Position numbers and translations under genes: made by a program. A model generated the notes under the pieces. That model was not told where the DNA came from. It did not search any database and worked only from the letters and a program-made list of their open reading frames with translations. From Methylacidiphilum infernorum V4 (GTDB taxonomy: Bacteria > Verrucomicrobiota > Verrucomicrobiia > Methylacidiphilales > Methylacidiphilaceae), in contig NC_010794.1 of the NCBI RefSeq assembly GCF_000019665.1, positions 682,001 to 746,000 on the forward strand: DNA of 64,000 bases, given 5' to 3'. Shown one piece after another: positions 17,070 to 24,873 of this stretch; positions within the stretch are counted from its first letter, which is position 1, and each line of letters begins with the position of its first letter.

Positions 17070-17714
17070 ATGAAAGAGAATAAAACCATGCTGTTCTTTC
17101 TTTTTTTCTTTTTTCCAATCTTGTCCCTTCCCCTTTTGGGAAAATCGCAAGCGGGGCGGCTCATTGCCCTGGTCAATAAAGAGCAATTGGACCTTTCAGA
17201 CTTAAAGGAAATAAACCGGATAGTCCAGTATTATTTTTTTCAAGCCGGCCTTGAAAAGATGGGCGAAGAAACCCCTATTTTTGTTTCCCATAAAAAAAGA
17301 TCGCTTTTGGGTCCTCGTCGTCCTATCCCTCCCGATTACCCTGCCAAGCTTATGTCATATGGTCATGCTCATGAGGAAACCCAATCCTATTCCTATCATT
17401 CGCCCGCTCATGCCCAAAGAGCGATCCGGAGCATCGAAGCGGAGATTAAAAGTAGGGAAAGTACTGACTGGGCGGCAATATCAGCGGGGCCATATTTTCT
17501 AACACCAACGAACTCCTCGGTCCATAGGCGCTTGACGGTGAGTTTTGATCCCCACCAAGTGGCCTGTTCTTTTCCCGAAATCCGAAAACTTTATGCCATC
17601 AATGGAAATCTCACCCGAAAAAATGCCTTGGATTATGCCGAAGGCAAAGCAGGAAAGATGGATGTCAGTTGTGTCTTCCAATCCGGTAGGCTAGTTCGGT
17701 TAACCTTTTATTAA
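17070..17714 (+). CDS. Secreted protein of unknown function
   Basis: Not recognised. The first 27 residues form a signal peptide: a charged start, a run of Phe/Leu, then LLGKSQA. The mature part is about 187 residues, mostly polar, with a His/Ser/Tyr-rich patch near residues 95-115 (YGHAHEETQSYSYHSPAHAQ) and a C-terminal section that looks beta-rich, ending RLVRLTFY. One cysteine pair (VACSF and VSCVF) could form a disulfide. AAGGA seven bases before the ATG supports the start. It leads the rightward group that continues with a small ORF and the ChaN-like gene. Confidence 0.7.
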   Translation: MKENKTMLFFLFFFFPILSLPLLGKSQAGRLIALVNKEQLDLSDLKEINRIVQYYFFQAGLEKMGEETPIFVSHKKRSLLGPRRPIPPDYPAKLMSYGHAHEETQSYSYHSPAHAQRAIRSIEAEIKSRESTDWAAISAGPYFLTPTNSSVHRRLTVSFDPHQVACSFPEIRKLYAINGNLTRKNALDYAEGKAGKMDVSCVFQSGRLVRLTFY

Positions 17715-17807
17715 TATAAATGCTTCCGGGCAAGCTTCCGGCCAAACAGAAAGGCGCTCAAGGACAATCCATCGTTTTAAAATGCTGGATAAAGGAGGGT
17801 CAAAAAA

Positions 17808-17876
17808 ATGAGCATTTTCTTTCCTTTTAGAAAAGAAACTTGGGTCAGAGACTTTCGGATCGACTTACTTCAATGA
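17808..17876 (+). CDS. Small ORF of 22 codons with a strong ribosome-binding site
   Basis: ATG 17808 is preceded by AAAGGAGGG at 17790-17799, one of the best Shine-Dalgarno sequences in the window, at an ideal distance. The peptide begins MSIFFPFRKETW and ends DLLQ before TGA. It is aromatic- and Arg-rich and stops 25 bases before the ChaN-like gene. It could be a leader peptide that governs the next gene by coupling, or an independent small protein. No homologue is known to me. Confidence 0.4.
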   Translation: MSIFFPFRKETWVRDFRIDLLQ

Positions 17877-17901
17877 AAGAAAGAAAGATCGGAGCTATGC
17901 C

Positions 17902-19212
17902 ATGAACCGGGATTTAAAGAAACTCAACGCCCTTGTGGTCAGTTGCGGGGAAATTCACGACCATGACCATTATCAAGCTTTGATTCGATCCCTTCCGGAA
18001 CTTGCCCGGAATCACTTTGTTTTAACCCTGGAGTTACCCCGGGATTTTAATCCGTTGATGAGAAAATTTATCGATAAGGCCACCTCCCTTTATGAAAAAG
18101 TAGCGGCTCATGAAATCCTTCCCGAAAAAGCGGAAAGAAAGGTCGATCAGCTTGAACTGGAGTTGATCGATAAAATGGAAAAAAAATACCCCAGTTCATT
18201 AAACTGGGAGTATGGGTTTTTCAAGTCTAGGGGAAGTCATTGCAGGAAAGAAAAAGGCAAATGGGTCATGGACGATCCGGTGGAAGGGAAGATAGTTTCT
18301 TCTATCGGTCATTACACGGACATCATGAGAGAGGTGGCTCGATACAATGCCGAGCATGGAAACCGACTCGGAGTTTATGCCGTTGATATCACCACGCGGG
18401 AAATGAAAGCCCAACAAAGGAAAAAAAACCTTTTTGTAGAAATCAACCTTCCCAAGGAATGTCAAAAAGCGGTGGACGACTATTTAGCGAAAGCAAAAAA
18501 AAGCGCCTTTTTGAGGAAAATACCCAAGGAAGGGTTAAAGGCAAAGTTTTTAGAAAACATAGAAAAAGAAGGGATTCCGCTCGAAAAGGAGCAAAAAGAG
18601 ATTTTATTAGGCAAGTTAGATTTTCTAGCCAGGCTGCAAAGAAAAGACAAAAGCCTTACTGTTTTGACGAAGAACCTAGACAAAACGGCATTTCGATATT
18701 TCGTTGAGAATTACCCCATAAAAGAGAAAGCGGGAGACATGAACACCCGATTGAATTCTGCTTTTCTTGACTACAGGGACCGGAGGATGGCGGGCAATGA
18801 TCCGAAACCCGAAGACAGGCGGTTCGGCCCTTGTGATATAAAAAAAGTGGCTTTATCCTATCCTTATCATTATCCCGGACCTCGGATATTGCATTGGGGC
18901 GGAGCTGCACACCTTGGTGAATGGAAACGGAAAACCAACCTGCCGTTGGAATTAGGAAAAGCGGGTTTTCCCCACGGGCTAACCGCCGATGCTTACACGG
19001 TTGACATTCTCTCCCCGGAGGCTTCTCTCGATGAGAAGGGAAGATGGGAAAGGCGTTATCCAACGGACTTTGTCTTTGAGAGCCAGAAGGGTTTACTTAA
19101 GGCCGTGCAAGAGGGGATCAAAGGACAGGAAAAAACGGCCGCTGGGCATGCGACTATCTCTACCGCCGGGTCAATAACGGGAAAGCAAAAAAATAGCGAA
19201 AAACAAAGGTGA
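17902..19212 (+). CDS. ChaN/EreA/TIKI-like superfamily protein (putative), function unknown
   Basis: A soluble 436-residue protein with no signal peptide. The N-terminus has the superfamily's opening pattern: a hydrophobic strand, then Gly-Glu-x-His (VVSCGEIHDHDH, Glu17, His19), then LPELA and a strand ending LELPRD (Glu44). A central segment reads like helix-Asn-x-x-His-Gly then VYAVDI. A late strand-Gly-Gly-x-x-His element (LHWGGAAHL, His337) matches the family's second site. Such folds occur in haem-uptake ChaN, erythromycin esterases and TIKI metalloproteases. A Lys/Glu-rich insert covers about residues 195-265. Its place beside a TrbL-like array raises the idea of a secreted or toxin-like role, which is speculation. 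Confidence 0.5.
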   Translation: MNRDLKKLNALVVSCGEIHDHDHYQALIRSLPELARNHFVLTLELPRDFNPLMRKFIDKATSLYEKVAAHEILPEKAERKVDQLELELIDKMEKKYPSSLNWEYGFFKSRGSHCRKEKGKWVMDDPVEGKIVSSIGHYTDIMREVARYNAEHGNRLGVYAVDITTREMKAQQRKKNLFVEINLPKECQKAVDDYLAKAKKSAFLRKIPKEGLKAKFLENIEKEGIPLEKEQKEILLGKLDFLARLQRKDKSLTVLTKNLDKTAFRYFVENYPIKEKAGDMNTRLNSAFLDYRDRRMAGNDPKPEDRRFGPCDIKKVALSYPYHYPGPRILHWGGAAHLGEWKRKTNLPLELGKAGFPHGLTADAYTVDILSPEASLDEKGRWERRYPTDFVFESQKGLLKAVQEGIKGQEKTAAGHATISTAGSITGKQKNSEKQR

Positions 19213-19213
19213 T

Positions 19214-20017
19214 TTACCTGTACCAGGCGTACCATTCGACCTGTATTTTTTGATCGATGTGGTGAATGTTTTGCCATAGCCAGTAGGCCTGGCTGCCGAA
19301 AATCTTGTATCCTAGAGGAGAGAGCATAAAAAAGCTGTTGCATAACCACTGGAGAAAATAGGGAGAGGTAGTTTTCCCGATGCCCGGGATAACCCTGAAC
19401 ATCTGGCCAAGATCAAGGACGAAGGTGAAATACAAGGGTTGGTCGCTATCCCCGTTGACTATGTAATAAAACTTATCGATTTTTTCATAAGCTTGGTCGG
19501 GAAGAACGTTAAATTCAGCCTGTATTTGTGAAGTGTATCCCCCGTAAGAATGGAAAGGCTCTGAAAGCCAAACGTATTCGGCATAAGAGGAGGCATAGTG
19601 TCGAGCAAATATTTTTTTTGCTTCTTCTCGTGGATATCTTCTCATGGTTACAGGAGAGCCGTTGAACCAGCCTTTGACCCACAATGCAGGAAACTTGGGA
19701 TCTTCGGGTAAAAAAAGATTGCCGACTCCGCCGAAAGGCATTGGAGGGAGCACCGAAGAGTATTTCCAGTCAAAAAAAACGTGGGGTTCTTTTATCGGAG
19801 ATCCGGGCTTTTGGGTAAGGAAAAGCCGGGCATAAATGTCCACCCTCTCGTAATAAGAGGCAAAAAAATAAAAACAGAAAAGGATCGAAGGAATCGACAA
19901 TAACCCCATGACTCTTAGAGTATAGGGAAAATGCTTGTGGTAAGAGAATAAAAAATTCCATCTTTCCTGTGCTGCTTGCACGGGATAGAATAAAAGGAGG
20001 TTTAAATACAACTGCAT
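19214..20017 (-). CDS. Diverged fourth member of the WYAWYR membrane-anchored family
   Basis: Function unknown. It shares with the three genes upstream a single membrane segment followed by YA-LFLT, the strand PEDPKFPALWVKGWFNG, a central YVWLSEP, and the C-terminus IDQKIQVEWYAWYR. It is 267 residues because of about 45 extra N-terminal residues before the membrane segment (YTLRVMGLLSIPSILFCFYF). The internal ATG of RVMGLL is too far downstream to keep the charged lead, so the longer start is kept with modest confidence. It lies at the end of the leftward array and is much less similar to the others than they are to each other, marking it as the older branch. Its stop is one base from the convergent ChaN-like gene. 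Confidence 0.7.
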   Translation of the reverse strand: MQLYLNLLLFYPVQAAQERWNFLFSYHKHFPYTLRVMGLLSIPSILFCFYFFASYYERVDIYARLFLTQKPGSPIKEPHVFFDWKYSSVLPPMPFGGVGNLFLPEDPKFPALWVKGWFNGSPVTMRRYPREEAKKIFARHYASSYAEYVWLSEPFHSYGGYTSQIQAEFNVLPDQAYEKIDKFYYIVNGDSDQPLYFTFVLDLGQMFRVIPGIGKTTSPYFLQWLCNSFFMLSPLGYKIFGSQAYWLWQNIHHIDQKIQVEWYAWYR

Positions 20018-20785: not shown

Positions 20786-20819
20786 GGTTCTTGAAGAATG
20801 TGTATTATACCTGATTTAA

Positions 20820-21212
20820 TTATGGGGGTCCTTGTCCACCCTTCCCCGCTAGTGCCCTGATCACGCCGCCGACCCGGCCCTGGATGTTTTCTCCCACACC
20901 ACGCAGTCCCTCGATTCCTGCGCTGTGGACCCTTCCGAAATGCCCGCTAAAGCCTTCGAGGAGGGCTCCGGCCATGTCCGCAAAAGCCGAGGACCAACCG
21001 TAGGCGATCCTTACGGCCACGAGCGGAAACATGGACCCTGCGTAAATGAAAGCGGCCACGATGTTAATGCCCAGGGAATAAAGCACCCAGGCTCCCGAGG
21101 CTTGCAAAAGCCCAAGGATCGTGTAAACCACCGCACAGAGGAAAGGGGGCTGACCGCCGGAAATTGGGGATAGTTTCAATTTAATTGTCAATTTTTTTAA
21201 TGGATAAGGCAT
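20820..21212 (-). CDS. Chimeric trbL C-terminal fragment, copy 3
   Basis: A 130-residue open frame. The first 18 residues (MPYPLKKLTIKLKLSPIS) are unrelated to TrbL and strongly basic. From GGQPPFLCAVVY on, it matches the last ~108 residues of the complete trbL-like gene almost exactly. The retained part has two probable membrane segments and the Gly-rich cytoplasmic tail (GVGENIQGRVGGVIRALAGK). The last six residues (GGQGPP) differ from the other copies. Whether it is translated is unknown. The intact frame and added start argue against a plain remnant, though very recent duplication could also explain them. Confidence 0.65.
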   Translation of the reverse strand: MPYPLKKLTIKLKLSPISGGQPPFLCAVVYTILGLLQASGAWVLYSLGINIVAAFIYAGSMFPLVAVRIAYGWSSAFADMAGALLEGFSGHFGRVHSAGIEGLRGVGENIQGRVGGVIRALAGKGGQGPP

Positions 21213-21248
21213 AATCTTCTATTATTCATACAATAGTCCTTTCCATGG

Positions 21249-21926
21249 TTACCTATACCAGGCATACCACTGGACTCGGATTTTCTGGTCGATCCGGGGG
21301 ACGTTGGTCCAGCGCCAGCTCACGGTTGACCCCACCCTTTGGTAACCCGGGGGTTCAAGCCTGAAGAACGTCCCGTAAAGCCACTGGACGTAATAGGGGT
21401 TGGATTGCCGGCCTATGCCCGGGATCGCCATGGTGATTCCCCCAAGATCCATGGAAAAGGTCACTTCCTTTATGGGCCTGTCCAAGTCATCCCAGTTTAA
21501 AATACAGATATACTCATCAATCTTTTGAGCTCCCTCGGCGGGAAGAACGACAAACTCCGCCTGCTTGTGAAGCTCTCCGTTTTCTTGGTAGCCATTAGAA
21601 AGCCACACGTAGCGGGAATGGCGTGAAGTACCTGACACCATCATTCTTGCTTGGGCGGCGGAATACTTATGCATGGCGAGAGAACGGCCGTTGATCCAGG
21701 CCTTTGCCCAAAGGGCGGGATACCGGGGGTCTTCGGGGATGTAGGCATGGCTTATCCTTACCCCATCGTAAAAATAATCGACCCTTTGATCAAACCCAAC
21801 ATGAGCTTGTAGTCCGTAGGGATATGTCTTTGCCCGTGTTAAGAACAGCTTGGCGTAAGTATGGGTCGATTCGATGAAATAATAGAGAAAGAAAAAAGAA
21901 AAGAGAGGAAGTAGCCCAAAAAGCAT
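21249..21926 (-). CDS. Array paralogue B: membrane-anchored WYAWYR-family protein
   Basis: 225 residues, function unknown. A membrane anchor (FGLLPLFSFFFLYYFIEST) leads into the same external domain as copies A and C. It has small insertions relative to C (for example YDGVRISHAYIPEDPRYP, and an extra pair near MMVSGTSRH). The C-terminal 110 residues are almost identical to C. TTTGGAGCC sits just before the ATG. It lies 36 bases upstream of the next trbL fragment on the same strand, so the whole array may be one transcript. Confidence 0.75.
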   Translation of the reverse strand: MLFGLLPLFSFFFLYYFIESTHTYAKLFLTRAKTYPYGLQAHVGFDQRVDYFYDGVRISHAYIPEDPRYPALWAKAWINGRSLAMHKYSAAQARMMVSGTSRHSRYVWLSNGYQENGELHKQAEFVVLPAEGAQKIDEYICILNWDDLDRPIKEVTFSMDLGGITMAIPGIGRQSNPYYVQWLYGTFFRLEPPGYQRVGSTVSWRWTNVPRIDQKIRVQWYAWYR

Positions 21927-21956
21927 GGCTCCAAATAAAACTTTTTATCCTTGGTT

Positions 21957-22343
21957 CTAAGGTATTATATCCTTCCCCGCTAGTGCCCTGATCACGCCGC
22001 CGACCCGTCCCTGGATGTTTTCTCCCACACCACGCAGTCCCTCGATTCCGGCAGAATGGACCCTTCCGAAATGCCCGCTGAAGCCTTCGAGGAGGGCTCC
22101 GGCCATGTCCGCAAAAGCCGAGGACCAACCGTAGGCTATTCTTACGGCCACGAGCGGAAACATGGACCCTGCGTAAATGAAAGCGGCCACGATGTTAATG
22201 CCCAGGGAATAAAGCACCCAGGCTCCCGAGGCTTGCAAAAGCCCAAGGATCGTGTAGACCACCGCACAAAGGAAAGGGGGCTGACCGCCGGAAATTGGGG
22301 ATAGTTTCAATTTAATTGTCAATTTTTTTAATGGATAAGGCAT
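21957..22343 (-). CDS. Chimeric trbL C-terminal fragment, copy 2
   Basis: 128 residues with the same foreign 18-residue basic leader as copy 3, joined to the TrbL C-terminal region at the Gly-Gly before QPPFLC. GAGAAG precedes the ATG at a short distance, and TATAAAT lies about 18 bases upstream. It ends ALAGKDIIP, whereas the complete gene ends ALAGKDWT. Two membrane segments are kept, so a product would be a small membrane protein, perhaps able to compete with or pair with the full channel protein (inference). Confidence 0.65.
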   Translation of the reverse strand: MPYPLKKLTIKLKLSPISGGQPPFLCAVVYTILGLLQASGAWVLYSLGINIVAAFIYAGSMFPLVAVRIAYGWSSAFADMAGALLEGFSGHFGRVHSAGIEGLRGVGENIQGRVGGVIRALAGKDIIP

Positions 22344-22379: not shown

Positions 22380-23048
22380 TTACCTATACCAGGCATACCA
22401 CTGGACGCGGATTTTCTGGTCGATCCGGGGGACGTTGGTCCAGCGCCAGCTCAAGGTTGATCCCACCCGTTGGTAACCCGGGGGCTCGAGCCTGAAGAAC
22501 GTCCCGTAAAGCCACTGGACGTAGTAGGGGTTGGATTGCCGGCCTATGCCCGGGATCGCCATGGTGATTCCCCCAAGGTCCATGGTAAAGGTCACTTCCT
22601 TTATTGGTCTATCGAGATGGTCCCAATTAAGGATGCAAACATACTCATCGATCTTTTGAGCTCCCTCGGCGGGAAGAACGACAAACTCCGCCTGCTTGTG
22701 AAGCTCTCCAGTTTCCTGGAAATCGTTGGAAAGCCACACGTAGCGGGAATGGCGTGAAGGTGTTCCTGTCATCCTTGCTTGTGCTACGGAATACTTATGC
22801 ATGGTAAGGGGACGACCGTTGATCCAGGCCCTAGCCCAGAGGGCGGGATACCGGGGGTCTTCGGGGATGTAGGCATTGGAGTTCCCAGCATAAAAACAAT
22901 CAACTCTTTGATCGAACCCAACGTGAGCTTCAAGGGCATAGGGATAAGTTTTTGACCTGGTTAGGAACAACTTGGCATAAGTATGAGTCGATTCGATGAC
23001 ATGGTAGAGAAAGAAAAAAGAAAAGAAGTGAAGGAAACATAAAAGCAT
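22380..23048 (-). CDS. Array paralogue A: membrane-anchored WYAWYR-family protein
   Basis: 222 residues, function unknown. It stands directly after the complete trbL-like gene, separated by about 60 bases, and is therefore likely the original partner. A membrane segment (LLCFLHFFSFFFLYHVIEST) is followed by the family domain with PEDPRYPALWARAWINGRP, SRYVWLSND, VVLPAEGAQKIDEY and the closing IDQKIRVQWYAWYR. One membrane pass plus an external domain is the layout of many secretion-channel accessory proteins, but I see no specific match to VirB8/TrbF or other named components. Confidence 0.75.
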   Translation of the reverse strand: MLLCFLHFFSFFFLYHVIESTHTYAKLFLTRSKTYPYALEAHVGFDQRVDCFYAGNSNAYIPEDPRYPALWARAWINGRPLTMHKYSVAQARMTGTPSRHSRYVWLSNDFQETGELHKQAEFVVLPAEGAQKIDEYVCILNWDHLDRPIKEVTFTMDLGGITMAIPGIGRQSNPYYVQWLYGTFFRLEPPGYQRVGSTLSWRWTNVPRIDQKIRVQWYAWYR

Positions 23049-23109: not shown

Positions 23110-24705
23110 TCAGGTCCAATCCTTCCCCGCTAGTGCCCTGATCACGCTGCCGACTCGGCCCTGGATGTTTTCTCCCACTCCACGCAGTCCCTCGATTCCT
23201 GCGCTGTGGACCCTTCCGAAATGCCCGCTAAAGCCTTCGAGGAGGGCTCCGGCCATGTCCGCAAAAGCCGAGGACCAACCGTAGGCGATCCTTACGGCTA
23301 CGAGCGGAAACATGGAGCCTGCGTAAATGAAAGCGGCAACGATGTTAATGCCCAGGGAATAAAGCACCCAGGCTCCCGAGGCTTGCAAAAGCCCAAGGAT
23401 CGTGTAGACCACCGCACAGAGGAAGGGGGGCTGACCGCCGGCAGCATTTGCTTGTTCTAAGCATTGTTGGATCGGTATACCTCCTAAAGCCCCGTTATTG
23501 GTAAAAATGCTTTGGAGAAAAACCTGTAGGAGGCTTGAAAAGTTCCCGATGCTGCCTCCAAAAAGATTGGAAAGACTGAGCCCGTTGATGGGCCAACCTA
23601 TGGTCGCCTCGATGATCATCGGGATCATCGCTCCCAGGGTAGTGGCCCCCGCCACAAATCCCATATCCCCACTGGCACTTATGCCAAAGAGGGTATTGAA
23701 AATGATATCCGCCATCATGTAGCCCAGGCCGGCCAGGATACAGTAAAGGGTGGGGACGATGGAAACGGCGACAAGACCCATGAGCATCGGTCTCCAGAGC
23801 CCACGGAAGGAAGCAAAAAAGGTCAGGGGGACAAGGGCGATGCCGAAACCCGTTAAGGCTTGGTAAGCCGCTTCGCTTCCACCCAAGAGAACGATTTGGC
23901 TGAAGATGATGGTAAAAATTGCTCCTATGCAAAGCAGGGCAGCCGCAAGCACGAGGGCGAACACCCAGCCGATGGAAGTCATGAGGGGGACGGCCCATAT
24001 CTGCATCGCGGTGATGGCCTGGGTAGCCGGTGCGGAGGGATCGGCTTTGACGACGTTCATCCAGGAAAGAAGCCCTTGGAAAGCTTGATTGAGGTACTTG
24101 TAGACCACGGGGTTGAAGATCGCCAGGTTGTTGGCCAGGCCAAACATCCGGCTTACAAATATCGGGCCAAATTTAAAGTCGGCTATGTTGCCCGGGCAGA
24201 CCGCCCCGGGAGAAGCGACCACCCCCACTCCACTCGAAGGGGGAACGTGGATCCAACAGATCCACCATTGGGTCGGGGTACTGCCCATTGGGGGATCGAA
24301 CGCCAAATTGGCTATCTCACGGCCCCACTGTAAGCCCCCTTGGATCAAGGCCTGCCTGCCGTAATCGATCAGGTGTTGGGGGAACTGCGCGTAGACGACG
24401 ATCCAGATAATCACCGCATGAATGGTGTAATCGATCAGCTCATCGATGATCGGTCTTCCGAAAGCAACGCGGAACCCTCCCATGGCCGCAGCCATGAAAA
24501 ACAGAAAAGGAGCGATCGTTACAGCGATCGCTTGGCCTTCCTGCCTTGCCTGTTGGCCAAACTGAAAAACTTTTTGGATAAGGGGTCCTAGGCTTGGATC
24601 TACCCCGGAAAGAGCCCCGTTAGGTTGGTAGGGTTGCTGTTGGCCATAGGCTAGGGGAATAAAAAATAAAAAGAAGAACAATAAGAAGAGAGCCTTTTTA
24701 GCCAT
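23110..24705 (-). CDS. TrbL/VirB6-like polytopic membrane protein (conjugation/type IV secretion type)
   Basis: 531 residues from ATG 24705, which begins a signal-like segment (MAKKALFLLFFFLFF to YGQQQ) and has AGGAA upstream. Upstream in-frame codons add 37 residues that look like noise. Several hydrophobic spans follow (for example TIAPFLFFMAAAMGGF, FALVLAAALLCIGAIFTIIF, GIALVPLTFFASF), then the region reused in the downstream fragments. The order of spans, the central soluble loop and the Gly-rich tail resemble TrbL/VirB6 inner-membrane channel subunits. No VirB4, VirD4, VirB8-10 or relaxase gene is in the window, so either the rest lies elsewhere or the protein works on its own. Confidence 0.65.
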   Translation of the reverse strand: MAKKALFLLFFFLFFIPLAYGQQQPYQPNGALSGVDPSLGPLIQKVFQFGQQARQEGQAIAVTIAPFLFFMAAAMGGFRVAFGRPIIDELIDYTIHAVIIWIVVYAQFPQHLIDYGRQALIQGGLQWGREIANLAFDPPMGSTPTQWWICWIHVPPSSGVGVVASPGAVCPGNIADFKFGPIFVSRMFGLANNLAIFNPVVYKYLNQAFQGLLSWMNVVKADPSAPATQAITAMQIWAVPLMTSIGWVFALVLAAALLCIGAIFTIIFSQIVLLGGSEAAYQALTGFGIALVPLTFFASFRGLWRPMLMGLVAVSIVPTLYCILAGLGYMMADIIFNTLFGISASGDMGFVAGATTLGAMIPMIIEATIGWPINGLSLSNLFGGSIGNFSSLLQVFLQSIFTNNGALGGIPIQQCLEQANAAGGQPPFLCAVVYTILGLLQASGAWVLYSLGINIVAAFIYAGSMFPLVAVRIAYGWSSAFADMAGALLEGFSGHFGRVHSAGIEGLRGVGENIQGRVGSVIRALAGKDWT

Positions 24706-24873
24706 GAATGAATTCCTATGTTTATTTAAATAGGCAATTTTTTTGGGGATGCCTTTACCCAAAAGGCTTCTTTTTTCTTTGATCGTGAAAAGAAAAGAAT
24801 GCGCCAACGAACGCATTCCTCTGCCTGGATTTTTTATTTGTAACTCAACTAAGAAGGAGTAATTATTATAGCT

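Follow-up and report, generated by a model that had tools for sequence, protein, structure and literature searches.

Shortened copies of a polytopic membrane protein gene may be real small genes that arose by tandem duplication and encode a constant membrane partner for a variable exported protein, X. We give this reading slightly less than an even chance. The copies lie on the minus strand of the 64-kb window (the whole stretch of DNA that was analysed), in the order membrane protein gene, X1, t2, X2, t3, X3, X4, where t2 and t3 are the shortened copies, or stubs. The features are:

23110..24816, minus strand: full-length polytopic membrane protein gene (parent), 568 aa from the first ATG; the protein is probably 531 aa, with an internal ATG as start
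22380..23048, minus strand: X1, exported or anchored protein, predicted beta-sandwich, 222 aa
22344..22379, minus strand: non-coding stretch from the X1 stop to the t2 start, weakly similar to the spacer between membrane gene and X in genome G004
22290..22343, minus strand: t2 leader, MPYPLKKLTIKLKLSPIS, no source found elsewhere in the genome
21957..22343, minus strand: t2, chimeric stub, 128 aa; leader, parent residues G460 through the K of ALAGK, and a private tail
21249..21926, minus strand: X2, 225 aa
21159..21212, minus strand: t3 leader, DNA identical to the t2 leader
20820..21212, minus strand: t3, chimeric stub, 130 aa
20123..20785, minus strand: X3, 220 aa
19214..20017, minus strand: X4, diverged X paralog, 45% to X1, not preceded by a stub

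The repeated unit is a tandem module of about 1.13 kb, composed of the shortened membrane gene and the exported protein gene X. Stub and X blocks each occur three times at spacings of 1122-1150, with 93-98% identity over 300-nt blocks; the module array holds three X copies, and X4 is an additional, diverged one. The gaps from the stop of the membrane gene or stub to the X start are 61, 30 and 34 nt, and these spacers differ in every copy, while in front of both stubs 36 non-coding bases separate the X stop from the leader. An earlier note had read the stubs as a fusion that was then duplicated. The repeated unit also includes the downstream X, which the note did not mention. In both stub-X spacers, at 21950-21990 and 20800-20835, a TATAAT follows closely on ALAGK, the conserved end of the stub, and it is not found in the parent-X1 spacer; X2 and X3 might each be transcribed from a separate promoter. 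X4 immediately follows the X array, and two opposite-strand genes lie beyond it (17070-20017 of the window). G001, G003 and G004 have these two genes between array and X4, which indicates a rearranged gene order.

The name trbL, which the earlier note had given to the membrane protein gene, is not supported. The PF04610 profile gave no match to the window protein at E<=1, to any of nine aligned members (the window protein and eight homologs) at E<=10, or in a search of its own genome. PF03135 (CagE_TrbE_VirB), the only family used in searching for the type IV secretion ATPase VirB4/TrbE, matched none of 14 genomes, own included, and 1 of 14 control genomes. We found no match for the membrane protein in Pfam, NCBIfam or PHROG or in plasmid and phage collections, and a PDB sequence search returned chance-level matches only; an AlphaFold2 model built from five sequences to compare the fold with that of VirB6 reached a mean pLDDT of only 35.6. 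Like TrbL and VirB6, inner-membrane proteins of type IV secretion, the window protein is polytopic with an N-terminal hydrophobic segment; it differs from them in the missing PF04610 match and in a genome without a CagE_TrbE_VirB ATPase match. A very distant homolog in G014 (22% identity) has a weak PF04610 score of 19 bits, below the cut-off, so a remote kinship with TrbL may exist. The C-terminal hairpin is among the best-conserved stretches in comparison with 41-44% identical homologs of a sister genus, and hydropathy of the stubs fits about two spans, in keeping with the small two-span membrane protein proposed earlier.

We compared the copies for signs of selection, with synonymous and nonsynonymous counts restricted to a 97-codon core. 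Between t2 and t3 there are 11 synonymous and no nonsynonymous differences (p 7e-7, simple binomial test), against an expectation of about 72% nonsynonymous without selection. The 97-residue core is identical in the two stubs and one residue away from the parent, which differs over the 97 codons from t2 by 15 synonymous and 1 nonsynonymous changes and from t3 by 6 and 1. To allow for sequence exchange between copies, we used four relatives to polarise the changes. All ten t2-only changes are synonymous, with six derived, three unclear and one ancestral-like; three of the ten are a single serine codon switch, so there are fewer independent events than ten. The derived changes cannot come from the present parent, which argues for selection on t2 itself, unless they were imported from a lost copy. 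Since copies exchange sequence, the synonymous bias could also be partly inherited from a selected parent through gene conversion. Collectively, these patterns are best fitted by protein-level selection rather than decay, with gene conversion from the parent as the main caveat, and they support the earlier assertion that the fragments do not reflect decay, both in the comparison between copies and in the derived t2-only changes. An antisense gene over the stubs was considered and rejected: plus-strand frames of 82 aa are open, but the open antisense frame has 0 synonymous and 11 nonsynonymous differences.

The stubs could instead be decaying 3' ends of duplicates whose frames are open by chance, an explanation we consider very improbable. 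In its favour, few substitutions have accumulated, so an open frame alone is weak evidence, and single in-frame starts are common by chance (19-44%, see below). Genuine decay of this gene is seen elsewhere in G003, and it has another appearance: the decayed piece there has 39% identity and 6 stops in 288 nt. The decay explanation has to contend with the absence of nonsynonymous change among the 11 differences between stubs, and with five shortened copies in G003 that are all open over 200-365 codons.

Gene conversion is central to a second alternative, which we regard as somewhat unlikely. The stubs would be homology arms that gene conversion keeps matched to the parent, and by recombining with it they could bring a different X directly behind the full gene; selection would see a stub only once it had become the parent's 3' end, and stub translation would be irrelevant. 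The copies are indeed homogenised, dS is lower between stubs (0.14) than between X copies (0.33-0.51), the stub-X spacers are different in each copy, and X loops appear to recombine between G003 copies. Synonymous-only change is also expected under such exchange, and recombination of orphan CDI modules is discussed in PMC3150448. Against it, the six derived t2-only changes are all synonymous, which has a chance of about 0.27^6 if they were unselected. Homology arms also have no need of in-frame starts, yet two species show them at three types of junction; the chance of an ATG is 19% at each, and the two types in G003 share upstream DNA and are not fully independent.

The reading of the stubs as small genes also raises the question of how they start. 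Both fragments lie at 20820-22343, each with its own ATG and, as the earlier note had described, a common 18-aa leader, with 0 of 54 nt differing between t2 and t3. The leader contains four Lys and no acidic residue and is joined in frame to the parent 3' end from G460, which supplies the last ~107 residues of the parent. The leader peptide and the private tails (KDIIP, KGGQGPP) distinguish t2, t3 and parent. The GAGAAG reported upstream is present at t2, but t3 has TAGAAG. Pairing with the presumed 16S tail was -2.9 for t2 and +0.2 for t3; complementarity was uninformative, with a median of -2.4 for 25 window genes versus -2.5 for 2000 random 20-mers, so the start signal carries no weight either way. 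X start regions likewise scored no better than random for a ribosome site. Homology to the parent does begin at the proposed CCGGCGG join, but, with no leader source found, this alone does not reveal how the two parts came together. Of 7678 intergenic position/strand cases in the window, 19% gave an in-frame ATG ahead of any stop on walking upstream, and 44% gave ATG, GTG or TTG; with chance starts this common, the leader alone is weak evidence for a made gene. The Lys-rich leader, earlier put forward as a key feature, is not kept in G003, where shortened copies begin otherwise. On these comparisons the leader looks incidental, and the unit that counts looks to be the hairpin plus X.

A source for the leader was sought in its own genome, with no other useful match and only short chance matches (best, unrelated, E 0.028), and in seven relatives, where none was convincing (best E 0.014). 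The leader region was then aligned against 22 candidate flanks. Its part up to and including ATGCC fits the G004 spacer between membrane gene and X with a score of 31, reached by 0 of 300 shuffles and 0 of 984 other windows in the G004 locus. When the G004 piece was scanned against the whole 64 kb in 90-nt windows, another position reached 32 by chance, so an origin from this spacer is suggestive only. The later part of the leader fits the flank downstream of the membrane gene in G002 (score 26; 2/300 shuffles, 0/982 windows), and flanks in G001 and G003 scored 22 (matched by 8/696 windows) and 20 (matched by 59/1884 windows). A search of five genomes matched the 5' element of the shortened G003 copies only within the array itself. 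The element shares 18 nt with the membrane-gene upstream of G003 (score 31, 0/498 other windows), but windows that score as high or higher by chance occur in the G004, G001, G002 and own loci.

The variable half of the module is X. X1-X3 of the window have an N-terminal hydrophobic segment, while G003 X1, the sole G003 copy tested, fell below the same threshold; the C-terminal end carries a conserved (V/I)xWxAWYR-like motif. X is predicted to be a beta-sandwich (pLDDT 84.7), and the best match in a fold search was 4g2a (Z 13.0, rmsd 3.3 over 174 residues), the double beta-sandwich ectodomain lpg2210. Other near folds were the ribophorin-I region of oligosaccharyltransferase and M1 aminopeptidase N-domains. 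Among the matches listed, double beta-sandwich ectodomains such as lpg2210 have 3-13% identity to X. A catalytic domain would not fit into X, and the common fold shows no function. Matches of X to the Pfam family Mcp5_PH (E 0.0066 and 0.064) were below the cut-off and were taken as chance.

Differences between X copies are concentrated in a few stretches (pairwise counts, which are not independent). Columns 46-60 have 9 synonymous and 35 nonsynonymous differences in the window and 11 and 194 in G003, where columns 91-105 (37/150) and 121-135 (46/146) are also hypervariable. Compared by eye, these stretches, which include indels, correspond to inter-strand loops of the predicted model, in which the rest of the sandwich is conserved. 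Across the seven X copies of G003 (L069), loop types recur in different combinations, also judged by eye, which suggests that loops are shuffled between copies.

We searched 40 genomes, own included, and matched the membrane protein in 16 and X in 11. Among five genomes of the genus, shortened copies were found only in the window genome and G003; G001 and G004 each have a single membrane gene with one X behind it, and the membrane gene of G002 has no X. The G003 order is full gene-X, t-X, t-X, T-X, t-X, T-X and a lone X, so that five of six membrane-gene copies are shortened, and an X stands behind each of them. A hydrophobic start, MSFCFFLLSFSLPFFLA, opens the three t copies, which continue with a short piece near residues 196-220 and then 401-566; the two T copies start with MNKI and continue with about 203-566. 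Differences among the six copies are mostly synonymous (14 of 15 pairs below p 0.05, the pairs not being independent), and the extra part of the two longer copies differs from the full copy by 28 synonymous and 8 nonsynonymous and by 14 and 1 changes. The G003 t2 copy has two nonsynonymous unique differences, both ancestral-looking.

In a tree of the core, the three window copies group together (support 1.000), apart from the G003 copies. Separate origins of the two arrays are favoured because leaders and break points differ; the alternative is an ancestral array with concerted evolution and losses. The earlier note had named random truncation points in relatives as a ground for refuting it; in G003 the truncation points do differ, and for the start this counts against that note. 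What is constant in both arrays is the 3' end of the membrane gene with X behind it.

The G003 junctions bear on a further explanation, translational coupling, in which the stub frame stays open since ribosomes finishing the stub start X, and the peptide has no role. At four of six junctions the stub stop overlaps the X start by 4 nt, the other two have gaps of 17 and 25 nt, and the random-like start regions of X would suit such coupling. The window gaps, however, are 30-61 nt, and both G003 X7 and X4 lack a stub. Coupling needs an open frame and not conserved amino acids, yet the change is almost all synonymous. We consider it improbable, though less so than decay.

More distant relatives vary in arrangement. 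LP2A (L092, 14890-18291) has four tandem X-like genes with signal-like N-termini and no stubs between them, about 3 kb from its membrane gene. Genus G005 has no X match; its membrane-protein relatives, of 386 aa, 242 aa (a truncated frame) and 336 aa, are found among diverse small lipoprotein-like genes in L082 (G005:C24:8000-17010) and L083 (G005:C38). This lipoprotein-like family comprises seven related reading frames over two contigs, one of which carries the unit twice, and has no sequence relation to X.

In the reading we lean towards, the duplicated module would be the 3' end of the polytopic membrane protein gene plus the adjacent X. In the window species, the break point would have put about 89 nt of spacer-like DNA, with a chance in-frame ATG, before the 3' end, and this unit would then have been duplicated. 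The product would be a short membrane protein with the parent's last hydrophobic hairpin and C-terminal tail, presumably translated, located in the inner membrane and acting as a constant anchor or export partner of the X encoded just behind, such that each new X comes with its own partner. The G005 membrane-protein copies beside a different small lipoprotein-like family count for a partner role. Counting against it are X genes without a stub (G003 X7, X4 in four genomes and the four X-like genes of LP2A), the membrane protein without X in G002, and start signals no better than random.

A broader proposal, which we consider unlikely as it stands, is that Methylacidiphilaceae possess a hitherto undescribed variable-ectodomain system in which the membrane protein, or a hairpin re-started from spacer DNA, is the constant partner of an exported beta-sandwich whose loops diversify and are shuffled among copies, a related genus pairs the platform with an unrelated lipoprotein-like family, and the whole serves cell-cell recognition or competition. 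If the partner reading is true, the array would be a clear example of partial duplication giving rise to new small membrane proteins, in which selection can be read from the sequence and the constant, conserved half has acquired starts more than once while its neighbour varies. It would also suggest that acid-loving methanotrophs, which gave no type IV secretion ATPase match, have an uncharacterised system of variable exported proteins.

None of our literature search results describes the array, nor do the available parts of PMC4210602 or PMC6688271, and VirB6 or TrbL was not found in that of PMC3482391. The closest likeness is to orphan cdiA-CT/cdiI and rhs-CT arrays, in which a full-length gene is likewise followed by tandem 3' fragments, each with a small downstream gene (PMC3150448). 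In CDI orphan arrays, according to the same text, the variable toxin is the fragment end, and fragments generally have no translation starts. No toxin domain was recognised in the window fragments with Pfam, NCBIfam or PHROG. In contrast to the CDI and Rhs arrays, the window fragment is nearly constant and has its own start, and the variable gene is the downstream X.
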